NCBI GenBank assembly: GCA_016929715.1 | Contig: JAFGIG010000101.1 | Coordinates: 1 to 44,182 of the forward strand | DNA length: 44,182 nt | DNA from: Caldifarciminota bacterium | GTDB taxonomy: Bacteria > SDB-A | Direction: 5' to 3' | Shown: positions 1,039 to 21,127 of the stretch, piece after piece | Position numbering within the stretch: the first letter of the stretch is position 1 | How the letters are laid out: the number at the start of each line of letters is the position of its first letter | The notes under the pieces: generated by a model | What the model was told of the DNA's origin: nothing | Database searches by the model: none | What the model saw: only the letters and a program-made list of their open reading frames with translations | Program-made: the position numbers and the translations under genes

Positions 1039-2043
1039 TCACCAGCCCGTTTCGTCAACAGGCGATTTTTTAGACACATTTTCCCACCAGAGACGGTTTT
1101 GTCTATACCATTTCACAGTCGCGGCCAACCCCTCGTCGAATCCTGTGACCGGCTGCCAGCCGAGTTCTTTCTTTATCTTAGAGCTGTCGAGAAGATACCT
1201 TCTGTCGTGTCCCGGCCTGTCTTCAACGTAAGACTTCAGGCTATCGGGTGCGGAAGTAATTTTCAGCAGAGCTCCGGCAATGTCTTCGACGCTTTTTTCT
1301 ATTGAACTCCCAACGTTGTAGGTCTGTCCGGGTCTGCCTTTTTCAAGAACCAAATCCACTGCATGGCAGTGATCTTCCACAAAAAGCCATTCTCTTTTAT
1401 TATGGCTGTTTTTATAGAGAGGAATTTTTTTACCCCTAAAAATATTTGTTAGAAAAAGCGGGATAAGCTTTTCGGGGAACTGGTAAGGGCCGTAATTGTT
1501 CGAGCAAACCGTTATGGTCGCGTTCAGCCCATAGACATTGTGATACGCCCTGACCGCGTGATCGGCGGAAGCTTTTGATGCGTTGTAAACAGTTCTCGGC
1601 CTGTATGGAGAGTTTTCCGAAAAAGGTTTCTCTTCGTCCAAATCCATGTCGCCGTAAACTTCGCAAGTGGAAATATGGTGAAATCTCGGGATATTCTCTT
1701 TTCTCGCGCACTCAAGAAGCGTCTGTGTTCCGATAACGTTTGTCCTGAAAAAAACGCCCGGATTTACGACGGAATAGCTGTTGTGGCTTTCCGCGGCGAA
1801 ATTGATTACCGCGTCGGGCCCGAACTTTTTTAAGGTTTCGCGGACTTTTTCAGCATCGCAGATGTCGCCCCTGACGAAACTGTAGTCAGAATCCGAATTC
1901 TCTATATCTTGAAGGTTTTGGATGTTTCCGGCATATGTCAAGAGGTCGTAGTTCAGGATTGAATCAGCGGGAAATTTTTTGAACCTGCATCTTATGTAGT
2001 TGGAGCCGATAAATCCGGCTCCTCCTGTGATAAAAAGCTTCAT
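1039..2043 (-). CDS. rfbB: dTDP-glucose 4,6-dehydratase-like SDR protein
   Basis: A 334-residue extended short-chain dehydrogenase. It has the NAD-binding GGAGFIGSNY at the N-terminus, the family stretch NFAAESH, the catalytic Y153-x3-K157 (YNASK) and the C-terminal RPGHDRRYLLD typical of RmlB. The family converts dTDP-glucose to dTDP-4-keto-6-deoxyglucose for deoxysugar synthesis. The usual active-site T-D-E is T126-C127-E128 here. The ATG at 2043 follows GAGGAGACG and overlaps the upstream stop as ATGA, so it is translationally coupled to the degenerate transglutaminase gene. No rmlA, rmlC or rmlD lies beside it, so the exact nucleotide sugar is uncertain. Confidence 0.85.
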   Translation of the reverse strand: MKLFITGGAGFIGSNYIRCRFKKFPADSILNYDLLTYAGNIQNLQDIENSDSDYSFVRGDICDAEKVRETLKKFGPDAVINFAAESHNSYSVVNPGVFFRTNVIGTQTLLECARKENIPRFHHISTCEVYGDMDLDEEKPFSENSPYRPRTVYNASKASADHAVRAYHNVYGLNATITVCSNNYGPYQFPEKLIPLFLTNIFRGKKIPLYKNSHNKREWLFVEDHCHAVDLVLEKGRPGQTYNVGSSIEKSVEDIAGALLKITSAPDSLKSYVEDRPGHDRRYLLDSSKIKKELGWQPVTGFDEGLAATVKWYRQNRLWWENVSKKSPVDETGW

Positions 2044-3413
2044 CTCGTCTCCTCTTCCAAAGATAACATCCATTTCCTCACTTTTTTACCGATTCCTGGG
2101 TCATATCCTTCAAAGACAATGCTTTTTTCAGCACACGAATCAAGGCAGATAACCGCGGGATATTCCAGAGGAGGGTCCCAGAGATTTTTTAAGCTTTCAG
2201 ACTCAAGACATAAAAAGATTTCAGAATCCTGCCCGTATATCAATATTTCGGGACAATCCTCAAAAATACCGGCGAGCATTCTAAGTGTGGGTTCCGAACC
2301 TTTCTCTCCTGAGATTACGGCGCACGGAGTCTCTAAACCGAGATCAGCAAGAATGGCAAAAACACTCTCAGGCAGTTTTCTCGGGATCGAAAACAAAAAC
2401 TCGGGCGCACTCGGCGTTATTTCGGTTTTTTCGCCGTTTTTCACCGAAAAAGAGAACATCTCGACAGACGAGGAGCCTTCTTCATCCCTACAGCCCGCGA
2501 CAAAAATATAATCTCCCTCACCGAGAGACGCTTCGAAATATTCATCTTCTTCACCGGGAAAATCGAAATAATCGAGGGGTTTTAAGCTCCCGTTGCAGAA
2601 TAAGTTCAAAGAATAATCCGTTTCACCGTCTTTAAGGTGAATGTGATTGATTACGAAGGTCCCGCAGTGAGCATATTTCTCCGTAAGTATTTCAAAGCCT
2701 GCCGCCCCAAAGGCGTAGACAATACTCACTCCGTGCTCTCGTCCGGGAAGGCTGAAATCTCCTGATAGATCAGCCGCCCATGGATAAAAAGGGACCCATG
2801 AGGAACCGTCGAATATCTCAATCCATTCGCAGGGCTCAAAACTTTTAGTCCCCGACGGGAGAAAGACCAAGCGTGAAGGAAATCCAAGAGACCTCAACGC
2901 CGCGGCGATGAATATAATTTTTTCCATTTTGGTCGCTTCTCGGCTTTCGAATATCCGCAGGACAGACCTGCCCGGGCCGAGAAGAGACATGGGTTCCTCT
3001 TTTATGTGTCTATCCGACCAACTGTTTAAGGAGCAAGCCGTCATAATCGGAGATTCAAAAGATATATTCCAAAAAAAATCTTTGAGGAGGGGTTTGTAAA
3101 GAGAAGGAGGTTCATAAAGTATCCTGTAATCGAGAAGGTATTTGAGAAAAATTGAGTCGGGAATGCTTTTTTCCGTCAGATACGGCAGAGAATGATCTAA
3201 ATTTTTCATAAAGAGAGCTGAATCGAATTCCAGAAGGTCTATAGTCCCGAGTATTGCTATCAGCTCGAGGGCTTTTTCCTTTTTAATGCCGTCTTCAATT
3301 AGATTCACTGTTGATTCTATAAGATGGGATTTTTTCCCGGCGTTTTCGAGTATTTCAGGGCTGAGAATACTTCCTGACAACGCGAAGCAGAAAAAAAAAG
3401 TTATGGTCGTCAT
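2040..3413 (-). CDS. secreted transglutaminase-like protein lacking the catalytic triad
   Basis: A 457-residue protein with a short N-terminal signal-like segment (TFFFCFALSGSI). Residues about 145-212 align by eye with the transglutaminase core of the gene just upstream: ALRSLGFPSRLV matches ICRTFGIPARQA. All three catalytic positions differ: Cys becomes K162, His becomes C195 and Asp becomes Y210. It should therefore be catalytically dead and may bind peptide or act as a partner of the intact paralogue. The C-terminal 240 residues are acidic, without a domain I recognise. ATGA overlaps join it to genes on both sides. Confidence 0.72.
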   Translation of the reverse strand: MTTITFFFCFALSGSILSPEILENAGKKSHLIESTVNLIEDGIKKEKALELIAILGTIDLLEFDSALFMKNLDHSLPYLTEKSIPDSIFLKYLLDYRILYEPPSLYKPLLKDFFWNISFESPIMTACSLNSWSDRHIKEEPMSLLGPGRSVLRIFESREATKMEKIIFIAAALRSLGFPSRLVFLPSGTKSFEPCEWIEIFDGSSWVPFYPWAADLSGDFSLPGREHGVSIVYAFGAAGFEILTEKYAHCGTFVINHIHLKDGETDYSLNLFCNGSLKPLDYFDFPGEEDEYFEASLGEGDYIFVAGCRDEEGSSSVEMFSFSVKNGEKTEITPSAPEFLFSIPRKLPESVFAILADLGLETPCAVISGEKGSEPTLRMLAGIFEDCPEILIYGQDSEIFLCLESESLKNLWDPPLEYPAVICLDSCAEKSIVFEGYDPGIGKKVRKWMLSLEEETR

Positions 3414-4471
3414 CGAACCCTCATGTAAAACAAGGTGTCAGGGTACATGTATTCTTTCAGAGAAAGAGAACAGACCAGGGTATCGTCTTTGAGCGGCTCA
3501 AATACGCCGAAAGCCTTTTTCCCGTCTTTTTCAGCCAAAGCAAAAACGCTGACAATGCCGCAGGTCAGATATACCTTCCCGTCTTCTCCTGTTTTCAGCC
3601 AAATCAATTCCCTCAATGCTCCCCAGTTGTATGCGTAAATCGACACTTTTGAAAACTCAACGGGCACATCGCCGTCTGTCACGTAAAATGCCAATGTCCC
3701 GGCAGGGGCATAAGCGCCTGTCCTGTTTATTAGGGAAGCATCCGAAAAAATCCTCACAACTTCTTCCCCTTCAGGCTTCCCCGGAGCTATGGCGAGTATC
3801 AGAGCTGTTTTTTGCAGATATTCAGTGAACCATGTCCTGTCCAGGACTGCGCCTTCGTCTATGTAGTGCCAATCTCCACCGATATAAACCTCAGTCCATG
3901 CGTGATTGTTGTCTGTGAATGACCAGTAAGGAACATAAGCCTGTCTTGCAGGGATTCCGAATGTTCTGCATATAGACGCTGAAAAAATCATGAGTTCTTC
4001 ACATCTTCCGAACCCTGAATAATAAGTCTCCAAAGGTCCCTGATCCCTTCTCGAAGTCTGTCTGAATTTCAATACGGACGAAGTCCACCTGAAAATCCTC
4101 TCGACTGCCTCTCGGGTGTCAGAACAGCTATCGAGACTGTCTGCGAGGATATTGAAGAAAAAAGGCCTGTAGTCTTCGAGCGGTTCCTGTGAAAACCTCG
4201 GATAAAGAACGTATCTTCTGCGTATATCTTCAGGAAGATTTTCCGCCCATAAAAACCTTCGATAACTTCTGGCAGGATATATAGCGGAATTAAAGACCGC
4301 CAGGCTCTCCTGAGGGTTCAAATTTTTCTCGAAAATGTTATCGAATATCCATTGGGCGTCTTCGGATACATCCTTTGCAAACCCTGCAGGTTCAAAAAAG
4401 ACCGCAGAAGTAAAAAAGACGAAAAAAACAAATCCGAAAAATTTACCCTTATTTTTCAGAACTGATACCAC
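3410..4471 (-). CDS. secreted transglutaminase-core protein (intact triad)
   Basis: A 353-residue protein with an N-terminal hydrophobic signal segment (FFGFVFFVFFTSAVFF). Its transglutaminase/protease-like core has C157 in GRCEELM, H190 in NNHAWTEVY and D205 in WHYIDEG, a complete Cys-His-Asp triad. Such domains cleave or cross-link peptides and amides outside the cytoplasm; the substrate here is unknown. The start is GTG, overlapping the barrel gene by 16 bases, and I see no good ribosome binding site, so coupling to the upstream gene is likely. The stop overlaps the next gene as ATGA. Confidence 0.8.
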   Translation of the reverse strand: MVSVLKNKGKFFGFVFFVFFTSAVFFEPAGFAKDVSEDAQWIFDNIFEKNLNPQESLAVFNSAIYPARSYRRFLWAENLPEDIRRRYVLYPRFSQEPLEDYRPFFFNILADSLDSCSDTREAVERIFRWTSSVLKFRQTSRRDQGPLETYYSGFGRCEELMIFSASICRTFGIPARQAYVPYWSFTDNNHAWTEVYIGGDWHYIDEGAVLDRTWFTEYLQKTALILAIAPGKPEGEEVVRIFSDASLINRTGAYAPAGTLAFYVTDGDVPVEFSKVSIYAYNWGALRELIWLKTGEDGKVYLTCGIVSVFALAEKDGKKAFGVFEPLKDDTLVCSLSLKEYMYPDTLFYMRVR

Positions 4472-5890: not shown

Positions 5891-7852
5891 ATGCAAGATT
5901 ATTTCGATCGTGAAAAAAACATAGAAAAGACGAGAAATCTCGTCGGTTTTGTCCCTTTTCAAAAGGCGTCCGGAGATCTTTATTCTTCTCTCGGTTTCAA
6001 ATGCGGGCTCGAAGTTCATCAGCAGCTTTTGACAGCAAAAAAGCTTTTCTGCCGCTGTCCGGCGGGATTGTATTTTCAACCCGATGATTTTGAAGCTGAA
6101 GTAATCAGACACATGCGGCCGACACTTAGCGAGCTCGGAGAGTATGACGGAACAGCCCTCATGGAATTCAAGACAAAAAAAAGGGTAATATACAGGATAA
6201 GGAAAGAGACAACATGCACATACGAGATAGACGACACTCCGCCTTTCAAGGTCAACCTTGAAGCGCTCGACATAGCTGCGGAAATAGCCTGCCTCCTCAA
6301 GACAAACATCGTCGGAGAACTGCACATAACGAGAAAACAGTATCTCGACGGAAGCATACCTACTGGTTTTCAGAGAACAGCCATAGTCGGCATAGAAGGC
6401 AGTATCCCCCTCAAAAACAAAGAAGTGAGAATAATACAGCTCAGTCTCGAAGAGGACTCCTGCAGAGAGGTTTCCGATTTCAGACACGACAGGATATTCA
6501 CTACCGACAGACTCGGAATGCCGCTAGTTGAAACCGTCACCTATCCCGACCTTCTGAATCCTCTCGAAGTCGTCGAAGCAGGGCAGTATATAAGGTTTCT
6601 CACGAGAAGCACAGGCAGGGTCAGAACAGGCATAGGCGCGACGAGACAGGACGTCAACGTCAGCATAACCGGCGGAACAAGAGTCGAACTCAAAGGTGTG
6701 CCTAAAATCAGCCTCTTCCCCTGGCTTGTCCACAACGAAGCATTCAGGCAGAAAGCTCTTCTCGAGATAAGAAAAATTCTTCTTGAAAAATTCAAAGGAA
6801 AAGAAACATGGCGACTGACTTCATGCAATTTCGATCCTGAACGCCTCAACCTTCCGCGTTCTCACACAAGGGCATACGGGAAAGAACCTCTTTCAGCCCG
6901 CGCAGTCCGCCTTCCCGGATTTGAAGGAATGCTTTCATTTTTCACTTCACCCGGAAAATCTTTTTCAGATGAATTGAGCGACAGGCTTAAAGTCGTCGCT
7001 GGACTCGAAAAACCCAATATTATGCATTCTGAAGACGGAGTATTCTGCGAAAACAAAGACGCTAAAGATTTTCTCCTGTCTAAACTCGGCTCTAAAAAAG
7101 GCGACGCTTTACTCGTCTTCTGGGGTCCTGAAGAGGACATGGAAACCGCCCTTGAAACCATAGACGAGAGATGCCTGCTTCTTTTCGACGGAATCCCGAA
7201 CGAGACGAGGAAAGGGCTCCCCGACGGAACAACCATATTTGAAAGAGTCCTCCCGGGACCGGACAGGATGTATCCGGATACTGATTCGGCTCCTATCCCC
7301 ATAGAGAGGTCCTACGTCGAAAAAATCGAATCTAATCTGCCGGTATCAGTCAATGAAAGGTTCTCTCAGCTCGATGCATGGGGCGCTCCGCAAGACGTCA
7401 GGACATACATACTCAGGAAAAATCTCATGCCGCTTCTCCAGAAGCTCAACCTAACCTACGGCGCGGACCCGAAATTCCTTTCCTGCCTTTCGGGACATTA
7501 TATAAAAAATCTCGAAGGAAAATCCGGCAAAAACTTTCCTTGGCTCAGGCTATTTGAAATTTTCGAATACATGGAATCAGAGTCAGTCGAATTTGAAAAA
7601 ATCAGGGACGTCGCCAAAATTCTCATTGAAAACCCGAACATGGAAATTGACTCGCTGTTCAGCCTCGCGGGATTTGTCAAAAGACAAAGAGATGAAGTAT
7701 TGTCAATGATACCCGAACTGAGAAAGAATTTTTCGAGAATAAGAAAATCTGAAAAAGAAGACGCTGAAAAGAGATGGCTCATGGGAAAATTAAAAAGCTT
7801 CGCGCTTGGAAACATTCCTCTCGGAGAACTTTACGGGGAGATAATACTTTGA
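5891..7852 (+). CDS. gatE: archaeal-type Glu-tRNA(Gln) amidotransferase subunit E
   Basis: With GatD this subunit converts Glu-tRNA(Gln) to Gln-tRNA(Gln) using amide nitrogen and ATP. GatE binds the tRNA and activates the glutamate. Visible are the GatB/E signature GLEVHQQL at 39-46, a Cys pair FCRC at 53-56, LEEDSCR, and the segment specific to GatE rather than GatB: GIPNETRKGLPDGTT followed by RMYPDTDSAPIPI, in the AspRS-like insert. A helical YqeY-like tail ends the protein. At 653 residues it has about 30 more at the N-terminus than I expect for the family. The ATG lacks a ribosome binding site, so the true start may be later. GatDE is described as archaeal; here it sits among bacterial genes. 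Confidence 0.93.
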   Translation: MQDYFDREKNIEKTRNLVGFVPFQKASGDLYSSLGFKCGLEVHQQLLTAKKLFCRCPAGLYFQPDDFEAEVIRHMRPTLSELGEYDGTALMEFKTKKRVIYRIRKETTCTYEIDDTPPFKVNLEALDIAAEIACLLKTNIVGELHITRKQYLDGSIPTGFQRTAIVGIEGSIPLKNKEVRIIQLSLEEDSCREVSDFRHDRIFTTDRLGMPLVETVTYPDLLNPLEVVEAGQYIRFLTRSTGRVRTGIGATRQDVNVSITGGTRVELKGVPKISLFPWLVHNEAFRQKALLEIRKILLEKFKGKETWRLTSCNFDPERLNLPRSHTRAYGKEPLSARAVRLPGFEGMLSFFTSPGKSFSDELSDRLKVVAGLEKPNIMHSEDGVFCENKDAKDFLLSKLGSKKGDALLVFWGPEEDMETALETIDERCLLLFDGIPNETRKGLPDGTTIFERVLPGPDRMYPDTDSAPIPIERSYVEKIESNLPVSVNERFSQLDAWGAPQDVRTYILRKNLMPLLQKLNLTYGADPKFLSCLSGHYIKNLEGKSGKNFPWLRLFEIFEYMESESVEFEKIRDVAKILIENPNMEIDSLFSLAGFVKRQRDEVLSMIPELRKNFSRIRKSEKEDAEKRWLMGKLKSFALGNIPLGELYGEIIL

Positions 7853-9231
7853 TGGATATTTACAAAGGATACAGAGGGCTTTCCCTTGAAGTTCTTAAAA
7901 AATACAACATTCCAGTCTGGACCGACGCTCTTGTTAAAACCGAAAAAGGCGATTTCAGAGGCATCATACTGCCAAGGTCTGTCAACGACGACGACAGGCA
8001 CATAGTTCTGAAAATACCCAACGGCTACAACATTGGAGTTTCAGCAGATTTAGTAACCGGCATCGAAGACGTTGGATACAAGGAAGCGCACTATAAAATT
8101 CCGGAAAAGGAATTTCCGTTTTCTCCCGAAAAACCCGGCATAAAACTTTTCGGAACAGGCGGGACCATTGCTTCGAGGCTCGACTACAGGACAGGCGCGG
8201 TAATTCCGGCTTTCTCTCCGGGAGAGCTTTACGGAGCCGTTCCCGAACTGGCGGATATCTGCAACCTCACAACCGAAAAGCTTTTCGCAGTTTTCAGCGA
8301 AAACATGGGACCTCAGCAGTATAAGACTCTCGCCGTTGCGATAGGAGAGGAAATAAAAAAAGGAACTCAGGGAATAGTTATAGGACACGGGACGGACACA
8401 ATGCATCACACCGCGGCCGCCTTGTCTTTCATGGTCCAGAATTCTCCTGTTCCCATCGTCATGGTAGGCTCGCAGAGATCTTCAGACAGGCCTTCTTCAG
8501 ACGCCGCATTAAATCTGATCCATGCGGTAAAGACAGCCGCAGAATCCGACATCGCCGAAGTCATGGTCTGTATGTTCGGTCCTACTTCGGATAAATACGG
8601 GCTTCTGCACAGCGGGACGAGGGTGAGGAAAATGCATTCGTCCTACCGTTCGACTTTCAGGACTGTAGGCGACATACCCATAGCTGCCGTCGACAGAGAT
8701 AAAATAACTCCCATAAGAAAACTTTATAAAAAAAGAAGGTCCGACAGAAACGTCGAAATTCATCCGTTTTTCGAAGAAAAAGTTGCAATGATATACTATT
8801 ATCCCAATATGATGCCCGACATGATAGACTCCCTTGTTGAAAATGGATACAAGGGAATAATAATCATAGGAACGGGGCTCGGTCACGTGAATAAACCTCT
8901 TTATCCCGCCATAAAAAGAGCCGCGGAAAAAAATGTTGCGATGTTCATGACCGTTCAGACGCTTTGGGGCTACACTCACATGTTTGTCTACGACACAGGA
9001 AGGGACCTGATGAGCCTCGGAGTCATCCCTGCCGAAAACATGCTCCCTGAAGTCGCCTACATTAAGCTCGGCTGGGCTCTCGGCATGACTGACGACCTCG
9101 AAGAAATCAAAAAGATTATGCTGACGCCTGTCTGCGACGAAATTACAGAAAGAGAACCCTACAACGGATATTTGATTTTCCAGGGAGGAATACCCGAAGT
9201 AGAGGATTTTCTCAGTAAAATCCATAAATAG
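7852..9231 (+). CDS. gatD: archaeal-type Glu-tRNA(Gln) amidotransferase subunit D
   Basis: The 459-residue amidase subunit releases ammonia from asparagine or glutamine for GatE. Residues 1-90 form the GatD-specific N-terminal beta domain that separates it from plain asparaginases. The L-asparaginase fold follows, with GTGGTIASR (T105), GHGTDT (T181, D182) and K260 in RVRKMHSSYR, the catalytic set of this family. The start is the ATG in TGATG, sharing one base with the gatE stop. That coupling fits the equimolar complex and rules out the 26-codon upstream extension. Direct adjacency to gatE argues against a stand-alone asparaginase. Confidence 0.94.
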   Translation: MDIYKGYRGLSLEVLKKYNIPVWTDALVKTEKGDFRGIILPRSVNDDDRHIVLKIPNGYNIGVSADLVTGIEDVGYKEAHYKIPEKEFPFSPEKPGIKLFGTGGTIASRLDYRTGAVIPAFSPGELYGAVPELADICNLTTEKLFAVFSENMGPQQYKTLAVAIGEEIKKGTQGIVIGHGTDTMHHTAAALSFMVQNSPVPIVMVGSQRSSDRPSSDAALNLIHAVKTAAESDIAEVMVCMFGPTSDKYGLLHSGTRVRKMHSSYRSTFRTVGDIPIAAVDRDKITPIRKLYKKRRSDRNVEIHPFFEEKVAMIYYYPNMMPDMIDSLVENGYKGIIIIGTGLGHVNKPLYPAIKRAAEKNVAMFMTVQTLWGYTHMFVYDTGRDLMSLGVIPAENMLPEVAYIKLGWALGMTDDLEEIKKIMLTPVCDEITEREPYNGYLIFQGGIPEVEDFLSKIHK

Positions 9232-9242
9232 ACGGAGCTTTT

Positions 9243-10544
9243 TTGCCTGATTTCAGCTATTACACGGCAGTGGATCAAATCTACCACGCCGACTGGACCG
9301 CTGAGAAGTTTTCGCGCTTTGAGAGAATGAAAGAAGCAATAAGCGAACTTTGGCCGCGAAAACACCCCGCAAAAATCGTTCAAATAGCAGGAACGAGCGG
9401 AAAAGGCTCGGTTTGCCGTTTTTTAGAAGCTTCGTTTTCGCTGAAATCGAGAACCGGAGCATTCACCAACCCTCATCTTTTCGATTTCAGGGAAAGATTT
9501 TCCATATCCGGCAAGTCTGTTGATCAGTCTGAGATAACGCAAGTTTGGGAGGATATTCTGCTCCCTCTCTGCGTCCGTCAATACAGAAAAAATCCATCAC
9601 TCGCTTTGTCTTTCAGTGAAATCTGCGTTTTAATGGCTCTTGTCTTTTTTCAAAGATACGAAATCGAATGGGCGTTTCTCGAAACAGGCTGCGGAGGCAG
9701 ATACGAAAGGCTCTCATGCCTCGAAGCTCAAGCGGCTGTGATAACATCAGTCGGTTACGACCATCCTCTGAGCCTCGGAGAACAAAAATGGCAAAGGGCG
9801 TGCGACAAAGCAGGTATTATAAGAAAATCAAAACCTCTCTTCACAGCCGAGACCGACCCGCAGATTCTCGATATATTCAGCCACTTTTGTCAAAGGTCTG
9901 AATCCGAAATGATACCGGTCGGTGAAGAGGATGAGTCTTTAGTCCGCGAGTTCATCGCCGGACAAAAAGAAAAACCTGTATTTCTTTCACAGGAGCACCA
10001 GATAAAAAATGCTTCCCTCGCACTTAAAGTTTTTTGCTGGTTCTTCCCGGAAATAAATCCGACAGAAGCCCTTTTGAAAATGAACGAGGTGTCAGTTTCA
10101 GGAAGATTCGAGGAGGTTTCACCGGGTGTTTACATTGATATAGCACATAATGAAGATAAAATCGAAGCTCTCGCCTGTCATCTGAAATCGAGTTTTCACG
10201 GCAAAAACATAATTCTAGTCATCGCGCTTTCAAACCTGCGCTCGCCTGAAAAAGTTTTCAAGAGCATAGCTTTTCTCGCCAGTCACATAATAGTCACGAG
10301 AGCATCCTACAGTTCCGTCGAACCATCTGATATAGCAAGGAAACTAAAAAACATGACCGGAAATGAAATAAAAGTGATCCGGAATCCGCGTGAAGCATAC
10401 AAAAAGGCGTTGTCCATGAAAGACAAGACAAACATTGTCCTGCTGACGGGTTCAAATTACATGATAGATCAAGCTCTGAACCCGGACAGAAAACTCGCCC
10501 ACCTGAACAATACTTACGGATGGAGATACAAAAGGGAGAACTGA
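9243..10544 (+). CDS. folC: folylpolyglutamate/dihydrofolate synthase family protein
   Basis: A 433-residue Mur-ligase-type ATP-dependent enzyme. It has the P-loop GTSGKGSV at 50-57, a diverged family motif TGCGGRYERLS (usually GLGGRLDATN), GYDHPLSLGE and DIAHNEDK (usually D-x-AHNP). FolC adds glutamate to dihydropteroate or folates. The start is TTG at 9243 with CGGAG six bases upstream, directly after gatD, so it is probably in the same operon. The diverged motifs leave open a related amide ligase with another substrate. It converges on the GGDEF gene with a three-base gap. Confidence 0.82.
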   Translation: MPDFSYYTAVDQIYHADWTAEKFSRFERMKEAISELWPRKHPAKIVQIAGTSGKGSVCRFLEASFSLKSRTGAFTNPHLFDFRERFSISGKSVDQSEITQVWEDILLPLCVRQYRKNPSLALSFSEICVLMALVFFQRYEIEWAFLETGCGGRYERLSCLEAQAAVITSVGYDHPLSLGEQKWQRACDKAGIIRKSKPLFTAETDPQILDIFSHFCQRSESEMIPVGEEDESLVREFIAGQKEKPVFLSQEHQIKNASLALKVFCWFFPEINPTEALLKMNEVSVSGRFEEVSPGVYIDIAHNEDKIEALACHLKSSFHGKNIILVIALSNLRSPEKVFKSIAFLASHIIVTRASYSSVEPSDIARKLKNMTGNEIKVIRNPREAYKKALSMKDKTNIVLLTGSNYMIDQALNPDRKLAHLNNTYGWRYKREN

Positions 10545-20071: not shown

Positions 20072-21127
20072 ATGACCCGTAACCGGCTTTTATGCCTATT
20101 TTTGACACTCTTAGCGGCTCTGCCGCTGTCCGGAGCAATCCGCAAACCGCTTCTTGAAATTCACAGCGGAGCCAATTGAGGGGGTTGCGCTTCATCTGCA
20201 GGTCTGCAGAACACATTTATAACAGCCAACTGGGACAGCCTTTCAGCTCTAAAATATTACCTTTATTCGACTGAACCCCTATACAGCCCGGACGGCTGGG
20301 GAAGGTTTCAGTTCTACGGCGGATCTGTCATACCGAGAGCCAATATGGACGGCGGAGCGATGTTCGCGCCTACATCCTCTACCGCGCTGAATACCGCCTA
20401 CGCGACTGCAATGACGATTCCGTGTCACGTCGAAATCCTTCTTCAGGGGACGGCAGAGCCCGATCTGATGTCGGGGACTCTCGGCATCACTATAATTGCC
20501 GAACAGGAACCGGGAGCGAGCCCTTACTACCTTCATGCAGCCGCTTGTTCTCACCTCGTCCCTTACAGTTACAGTTATTTTTCAGAATTTCACTATCCCC
20601 TGAGGAAAATGTATCCCAACTACAACGGGACTCTCGTAACTTTTTCAGGGGTATATCCTGAAACACTTCAGTATAACATTCCTTTCTCACTCAGCGCTTC
20701 CTGGTGGCACCTCGAACCGGACGACATCTATTTTGCAGTATGGCTCCAGACAAACAAAGGCACCGACAAACAAATTCATCAGAGCGAGAACATTGAGATA
20801 ACGGTATTCAATTCAGTCGAGGAAACGCCTTCTCCTGTCGTCTCTTCGGGAGTATTCGCCCTTGGGGCTGTTTATCCCAATCCGTTCTCAGATGTTTCTT
20901 TCATTCCGGTTTTAGTTGAAAAACCTGCAGTGATATCCTTAAAAATCTTCGACCTCACAGGCAGAGCTGTAAGAGACCTGTTTTCAGAATCCCTCGTCGA
21001 AAACGATATCGTCTTGTTTTGGGATGGCAAAGACGACTCCGGCGCTGAAATGAATGCCGGCATATACAGAATACAGCTCACAGGTGACGGATTCAGGGAC
21101 TCCAAAACAATCATAAAAATAAGATAA
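20072..21127 (+). CDS. exported Omp28/thioredoxin-like selenoprotein with C-terminal sorting domain
   Basis: A 351-residue reading with one in-frame TGA (20177-20179) read as selenocysteine 36. AAAAAGGAGG precedes the ATG at 20072. Residues 1-22 are a signal peptide (RLLCLFLTLLAALPLSGA). LLEIHSGAN-U-GGC follows: a thioredoxin-fold first strand leading to U36-x-x-C39, resembling the LLE-F-TG-x-CxxC opening of Omp28-type surface proteins. The later GGSVIPRANMDG fits the cis-Pro loop. The last 85 or so residues (YPNPF, IFDLTGRAVRDL, NAGIYRIQLTGDG) are a FlgD-Ig/T9SS-like sorting domain. The frame stays open from TGA to 21127. A pseudogene or a shorter gene from ATG 20345 are the alternatives, but the SECIS hairpin argues against both. 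The redox partner is unknown. Confidence 0.85.
20177..20210 (+). promoter_or_regulatory. Sec codon (TGA) and bacterial SECIS hairpin
   Basis: The TGA at 20177-20179 is followed by a perfect 6-bp stem, TCTGCA (20195-20200) with TGCAGA (20205-20210), closed by the loop GGTC. The core TGCAGGTCTGCA is, from memory, the apical hairpin of the E. coli fdhF SECIS recognised by SelB. The GGU loop begins 21 bases after the TGA, against about 18 in fdhF. An alternative fold pairs TTC with GAA and leaves ATC unpaired on the 5' side, like the bulged-U feature. The hairpin lies inside coding sequence, as bacterial SECIS elements do. Confidence 0.85.

Follow-up and report, generated by a model that had tools for sequence, protein, structure and literature searches.

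An archaeal-type GatDE amidotransferase in a Caldifarciminota bacterium belongs to a widespread bacterial branch found beside glutaminyl-tRNA synthetase

Results

A coupled gatE–gatD pair among bacterial-type genes

The window analysed here, a stretch of 44,182 nucleotides that forms one contig (C110) of a Caldifarciminota bacterium genome, carries two intact, adjoining genes for the subunits of a GatDE-type amidotransferase, followed by folC. The features of the locus are:

5891..7852, + strand: gatE, bacterial type 1, 653 aa (open frame; TIGR00134; AlphaFold model against 2d6f_D)
5891..5980, + strand: N-terminal extension of ~30 aa in type 1 GatE (alignment with type 2 and archaeal PDB sequences)
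5981..6775, + strand: catalytic cradle of GatE (E41, H43, E187, E188, D189 and E214 conserved)
6800..7192, + strand: predicted AspRS-like (GAD) insertion domain of GatE (fold in the model; no match to Pfam GAD)
7343..7849, + strand: predicted helical YqeY-like tail of GatE, strongly diverged (model residues 485–653 against 4ye8; no PF02637 match)
7850..7854, + strand: TGATG, in which the gatE stop and the gatD start overlap, coupling the two genes (read directly from the sequence)
7852..9231, + strand: gatD, 459 aa (TIGR02153; T105, T181, D182, K260; C-terminal extension common to bacterial GatD)
9243..10544, + strand: folC, a neighbour and not part of the enzyme (TIGR01499, 225.7 bits; same order in relative L005)

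The GatE product scored 377.7 bits against TIGR00134 (gatE_arch; cut-off 319.55), and so passes this equivalog model, and 442.2 bits against NF003107, slightly below the cut-off of 456. GatD scored 500.8 bits against TIGR02153 (gatD_arch; cut-off 324) and 502.5 bits against NF003217 (cut-off 310), and contains the Pfam domains GatD_N (PF18195), Asparaginase (PF00710) and Asparaginase_C (PF17763). The gatD start was taken as the ATG at 7852 (MDIYKGYRG...), where its homologues begin; the mechanical open reading frame, starting at 7774, is too long. The nearest solved structures to the pair are chains of archaeal GatDE, 2d6f and 1zq1 (E about 1e-76 to 1e-118). A preliminary description of this DNA had named the genes gatE and gatD, coupled by TGATG in a bacterial context, and each of these points held: the pair exceeds family-model cut-offs with its catalytic residues kept, the overlap can be read at 7850–7854, and the neighbours examined (rmlB, folC, GGDEF, AIM24, YgiQ, MsbA-like and SurE) are of bacterial type. 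folC starts 11 bases 3' of gatD and is probably co-transcribed with gatDE.

Elsewhere in the window, two adjoining transglutaminase-like proteins (2040–4471, − strand; one below the Pfam cut-off) are encoded beside an outer-membrane-like protein and divergently from gatE, and the product of 20345–21127 (+ strand) carries at its C terminus a sorting domain for type IX secretion (TIGR04183, 33.1 bits; cut-off 23).

gatDE is resident in the bin and in its phylum

The window belongs to a bin of 1.98 Mb that is 94.7% complete and 0.08% contaminated. All four genomes examined from the same phylum carry gatE, split over two contigs in one of them. The gene order of the window (outer-membrane-like gene, gatE, gatD, folC) recurs in an independent relative of the same family, L005, a bin labelled 'Desulfuromonas sp. 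SDB'. L005 and G053, a genome from that family, have identical GatE. Because of this synteny and the presence of gatE in 4/4 phylum genomes, gatDE is resident and not a contaminant. The low contamination of the bin, taken with the same two observations, rules out a chimeric contig, one of the circumstances in which the preliminary description would have had to be set aside.

The catalytic centre is conserved and the tRNA-reading parts have diverged

The GatE residues E41, H43, E187, E188, D189 and E214 were identical across 23 type 1, 15 type 2 and two archaeal sequences, and T105, T181, D182 and K260 of GatD were invariant in 28 bacterial GatD. We take the two threonines, the aspartate and the lysine of GatD to be catalytic, and the acidic residues and histidine of GatE to form a metal site. 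Against a copy from the same genus, dN/dS was roughly 0.06 for gatE and 0.03 for gatD, with dS saturated, which is purifying selection on both genes.

An AlphaFold model of GatE (mean pLDDT 78) superposed on 2d6f_D, a chain of the GatDE structure with tRNA(Gln), with a Z score of 25.6 (rmsd 5.3, 478 aligned residues). Residues ~304–434 of the model matched AspRS insertion domains (Z 8–10), and residues 485–653 matched the N-terminal domain of human GlnRS (4ye8) with a borderline Z of 7.9. The predicted domain order is thus cradle, AspRS-like insertion and helical YqeY-like tail, with the tail match being borderline. The predicted GatD model had a mean pLDDT of 72 with a weak stretch, and was left out of the claims made here.

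At the level of sequence, neither Pfam GAD nor YqeY (PF02637) was detected in the window GatE, whereas both matched the archaeal controls; across the family these signals were strong in the archaeal controls, weak to moderate in type 2 and essentially nil in type 1. Identity between type 1 and archaeal GatE fell from 42% in the cradle to 21% in the insertion and 14% in the tail, and that between type 1 and type 2 from 66% to 29% and 15%, so that the type 1 tail is only 14–15% identical to either. The pair thus looks like an active enzyme under selection, in which the catalytic centre has been kept and the parts that read tRNA have been remodelled. Since the cradle is conserved while the tRNA-reading domains have diverged the most, its substrate may have changed.

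GatDE is widespread in bacteria and forms two clades

A scan of GTDB species genomes identified relatives encoded by at least 583 stretches. The best 80 of these were all bacterial by record title, and their carriers included Bacteroidota, Zixiibacteriota, Aminicenantota, Cloacimonadota, Clostridium, Oceanirhabdus and others. gatE was found in 30 of 395 genomes sampled from the phylum of a Bacteroidales bin (G048), and in 6/194 genomes of the family of Clostridium tagluense. The window GatE is 52–77% identical to 80 other bacterial GatE drawn from across phyla and 31–33% identical to archaeal GatE; for GatD the values are 67–91% and ~47%. The two genes adjoin in nearly all loci, and GatD is ~460 aa long across phyla. 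When neighbouring genes were clustered over 80 loci they proved to be lineage-specific, and no partner beyond gatD was widely common.

Trees of both subunits gave the same split into archaeal, type 1 (including the window) and type 2 sequences, showing that the subunits have been inherited together. SH-aLRT support in the GatE tree was 97 for type 1 and 98 for type 2, and in the GatD tree only 82 and 60. The trees contain just two usable archaeal sequences and therefore do not fix the bacterial root relative to archaea, or the depth and direction of the split; scans of viral contigs yielded no further archaeal GatE for rooting. A sequence from a plasmid search, Natrinema, was left out because of its short frame and a branch length of 6.15. 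This gatE-like stretch (L150, 3001–3804) lies on a plasmid of Natrinema thermotolerans (CP031304) without an annotated gene, and its frame (476 aa) looks interrupted. Type 2 occurs in Bacteroidota (L163–L181). Within type 1 the Bacteroidota form one clade, save for a few bins (Aminicenantes-labelled or unnamed) nested inside it; three of the Aminicenantes-labelled bins (L034, L044 and L081) are so placed by GatE, through either transfer or mis-binning.

Taken together, these data show that the window GatDE belongs to a widespread and probably old bacterial branch. Of the two origins offered in the preliminary description, an unreported bacterial lineage comes close to what the trees show, since both bacterial clades lie at a distance from the archaeal pair of sequences, although not as a pathway for Gln-tRNA. 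The other, transfer from archaea, is not supported as an event confined to this genome, given the four phylum genomes, the conserved synteny and the hundreds of bacterial relatives; the phylogenies it called for recovered bacterial clades distinct from the archaeal sequences.

The host has its own synthetases for glutamine and asparagine

The window genome encodes two class I Glx synthetases. One is a bacterial GluRS (gltX_bact, 506 bits), which, in a one-residue comparison bearing on whether it is non-discriminating, has an arginine aligned with Arg358 of the Thermus enzyme, as does its best-matching chain, 4gri. The other is a GlnRS, present as a C-terminal half (glnS, 407.7 bits) on a frame that is still open where the contig ends. 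AsnRS (444 bits), an AsnB-like asparagine synthase and a single, bacterial-type AspRS were also found, with no second AspRS of archaeal type. Because GlnRS and AsnRS are present, the host appears to charge both glutamine and asparagine directly. No Amidase match indicative of GatA was found in this genome, and its sole GatB_N match was the window GatE itself.

Archaeal GatDE reads the A1:U72 pair of tRNA(Gln) (PMC9499178). Both tRNA-Gln genes of the window genome instead have U1:A72, together with G73, and U1:A72 was found in 9/9 tRNA-Gln read from GatDE-bearing genomes (these two and seven further). The suggestion that GatDE provides this bacterium's Gln-tRNA was therefore not upheld, as GlnRS is present and the tRNA lacks A1:U72. 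The comparisons proposed alongside it found a GlnRS (as a fragment), neither GatA nor GatB, and no A1:U72 in the tRNA-Gln genes.

GatDE and GlnRS occur together across bacterial phyla

GluRS/GlnRS-type matches were present in 48 of 50 GatDE-bearing bacterial genomes, most of which have two, while GatB was absent from 42 of the 50. BLAST confirmed GlnRS for 28/30 fetched loci, including those of Clostridium tagluense and Oceanirhabdus, and GlnRS was seen in one type 2 genome (L180). In the Clostridiaceae, GatB was absent from 5/6 GatE genomes but also from about half of the rest, so that mutual exclusion of GatE and GatB there was discarded as evidence.

In three lineages (L005, L075 and L180), no more than a few kb separate glnS from gatDE. 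The expectation, calculated from 1.17 Mb of flanks and genomes averaging 3.2 Mb, is 0.37 (P about 0.006); the pattern consists of three cases and was spotted post hoc. glnS is divergent and beside gatE in L075, and convergent and beside gatD in L180. The same flanks contained no GluRS, AsnRS or AspRS gene. In the type 2 locus of L180 (3918–7234), the 3' ends of glnS and gatD face each other, with three bases between them. Separately, a tRNA-Gln (CUG) gene was found directly beside glnS in six GatDE-bearing genomes (L116, L126, L129, L138, L141 and L144).

Discussion

The pair described here resembles archaeal GatDE (2d6f from Methanothermobacter, 1zq1 from Pyrococcus) in its two subunits, family models and catalytic residues, and in the overall fold of GatE with its AspRS-like insertion. 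It differs in its low identity to the archaeal proteins (31–33% for GatE, 47% for GatD), in the N-terminal extension of type 1 GatE and the C-terminal extension of GatD, in its diverged insertion and tail, and in a host that has GlnRS and a U1:A72 tRNA-Gln in place of A1:U72. With type 2 bacterial GatDE it has the bacterial cradle signatures in common and a GatD that is ~73% identical; type 2 GatE, however, is only 41–42% identical to the window GatE, forms a separate clade, and has retained a recognisable YqeY signal and a weak GAD one, which the window protein lacks. The GatB subunit of bacterial GatCAB has the same cradle as GatE, and GatCAB works on misacylated tRNA and can coexist with GlnRS (PMC4206432), but its amidase is a different one, GatA, it has GatC as a third subunit, and neither GatA nor GatB is encoded in the window genome.

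In the reading that we tentatively favour, while giving it somewhat less than even confidence, bacterial GatDE would act as a Glu-tRNA amidotransferase and, in bacteria that have GlnRS, would provide repair or backup of Gln-tRNA(Gln). GatD, as an asparaginase-like amidase, would free ammonia, and GatE would act as the kinase/transamidase, both being made from one coupled operon; the enzyme would then most likely make glutamine from glutamate that is esterified to tRNA. As the host has GlnRS, GluRS and AsnRS and lacks GatA and GatB, such an activity would be accessory to the direct route, serving repair or backup. Counting against repair or backup are the U1:A72 tRNA-Gln, the diverged tRNA-reading domains, the truncation of glnS by the contig end and the absence of such an enzyme from most GlnRS bacteria. 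The strongest rival is a re-purposed GatDE, in which the same amide transfer to an activated carboxyl would serve another acceptor, for instance a different tRNA, a molecule that resembles tRNA or a substrate of some other kind, through a remodelled insertion and tail. This is possible but the less probable of the two. It would explain why the cradle is kept while insertion and tail diverge most, why type 1 lacks the Pfam GAD and YqeY signals of the archaeal controls, and why the host combines a complete synthetase set for Gln, Glu, Asn and Asp with a tRNA-Gln that lacks A1:U72; yet the model still has an AspRS-like insertion and a weakly YqeY-like helical tail, no conserved extra gene points to another pathway, and glnS tends to be nearby. 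The broader proposition that spans both, namely that bacteria hold an ancient, undescribed GatDE branch beside GlnRS which either corrects Glu-tRNA(Gln) in a post-transfer step or works on a new acceptor, seems to us somewhat more probable than not.

Other explanations fare worse. It is improbable that GatDE serves, in the archaeal manner, as the working route to Gln-tRNA(Gln) while the GlnRS is non-functional or used elsewhere. The intact GatDE, the bacterial GluRS and a glnS cut by the contig end are compatible with this, but GlnRS accompanies GatDE in many phyla, glnS lies close to gatDE in the relative L005, and tRNA-Gln has the U1:A72 of bacterial GlnRS substrates, plus G73 in the window genome; as the sole route to Gln-tRNA in that genome, GatDE is ruled out by the GlnRS present. 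We give slightly less credence still to amidation of Asp-tRNA(Asn) for the supply of asparagine. An amidotransferase is kept beside GlnRS and AsnRS in bacteria such as Deinococcus and Thermus, where it is GatCAB (PMC4206432), but the present host has AsnRS, one bacterial-type AspRS and an AsnB-like asparagine synthase, and archaeal GatDE acts specifically on Glu-tRNA(Gln) (PMC9499178). A recent archaeal origin by transfer, or contamination of the bin with archaeal DNA, is suggested by the archaeal names of the models and by the archaeal origin of the nearest solved structures; it is the least credible explanation of all and fails on the present data, given a GatE far closer to other bacteria (52–77%) than to archaea (31–33%), the long branch between archaeal and bacterial sequences in the trees, the 0.08% contamination, gatE in 4/4 genomes of the phylum and the synteny with L005.

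Reviews state that GatDE is restricted to archaea (PMC9499178, PMC8007984), which bears out the account of the literature given in the preliminary description. We found no description of bacterial GatDE in the open-access literature searched, a body that leaves most subscription journals outside its coverage; the genes are not invisible in databases, as NCBI models would already name many bacterial copies GatE or GatD. Scenarios for LUCA and for the split of the amidotransferases rest on an archaea-only GatDE (PMC9499178), and its wide occurrence in bacteria changes the distribution that such scenarios must explain. Since Clostridium tagluense and Oceanirhabdus are carriers (among the best 80 of at least 583 relatives), cultured isolates should be obtainable. 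That GatDE coexists with GlnRS is the reverse of what holds in archaea, and raises the question of whether bacteria with GlnRS correct tRNA(Gln) that has been mischarged. Surveys of genomes based on gatCAB alone miss GatDE, and one scheme classes genomes as 'GlnRS present, gatCAB absent, indirect pathway defunct' (PMC3927822). If bacterial GatDE is indeed a corrector on the side of GlnRS, or serves a new acceptor, genomes so classed would hide a tRNA amidotransferase.
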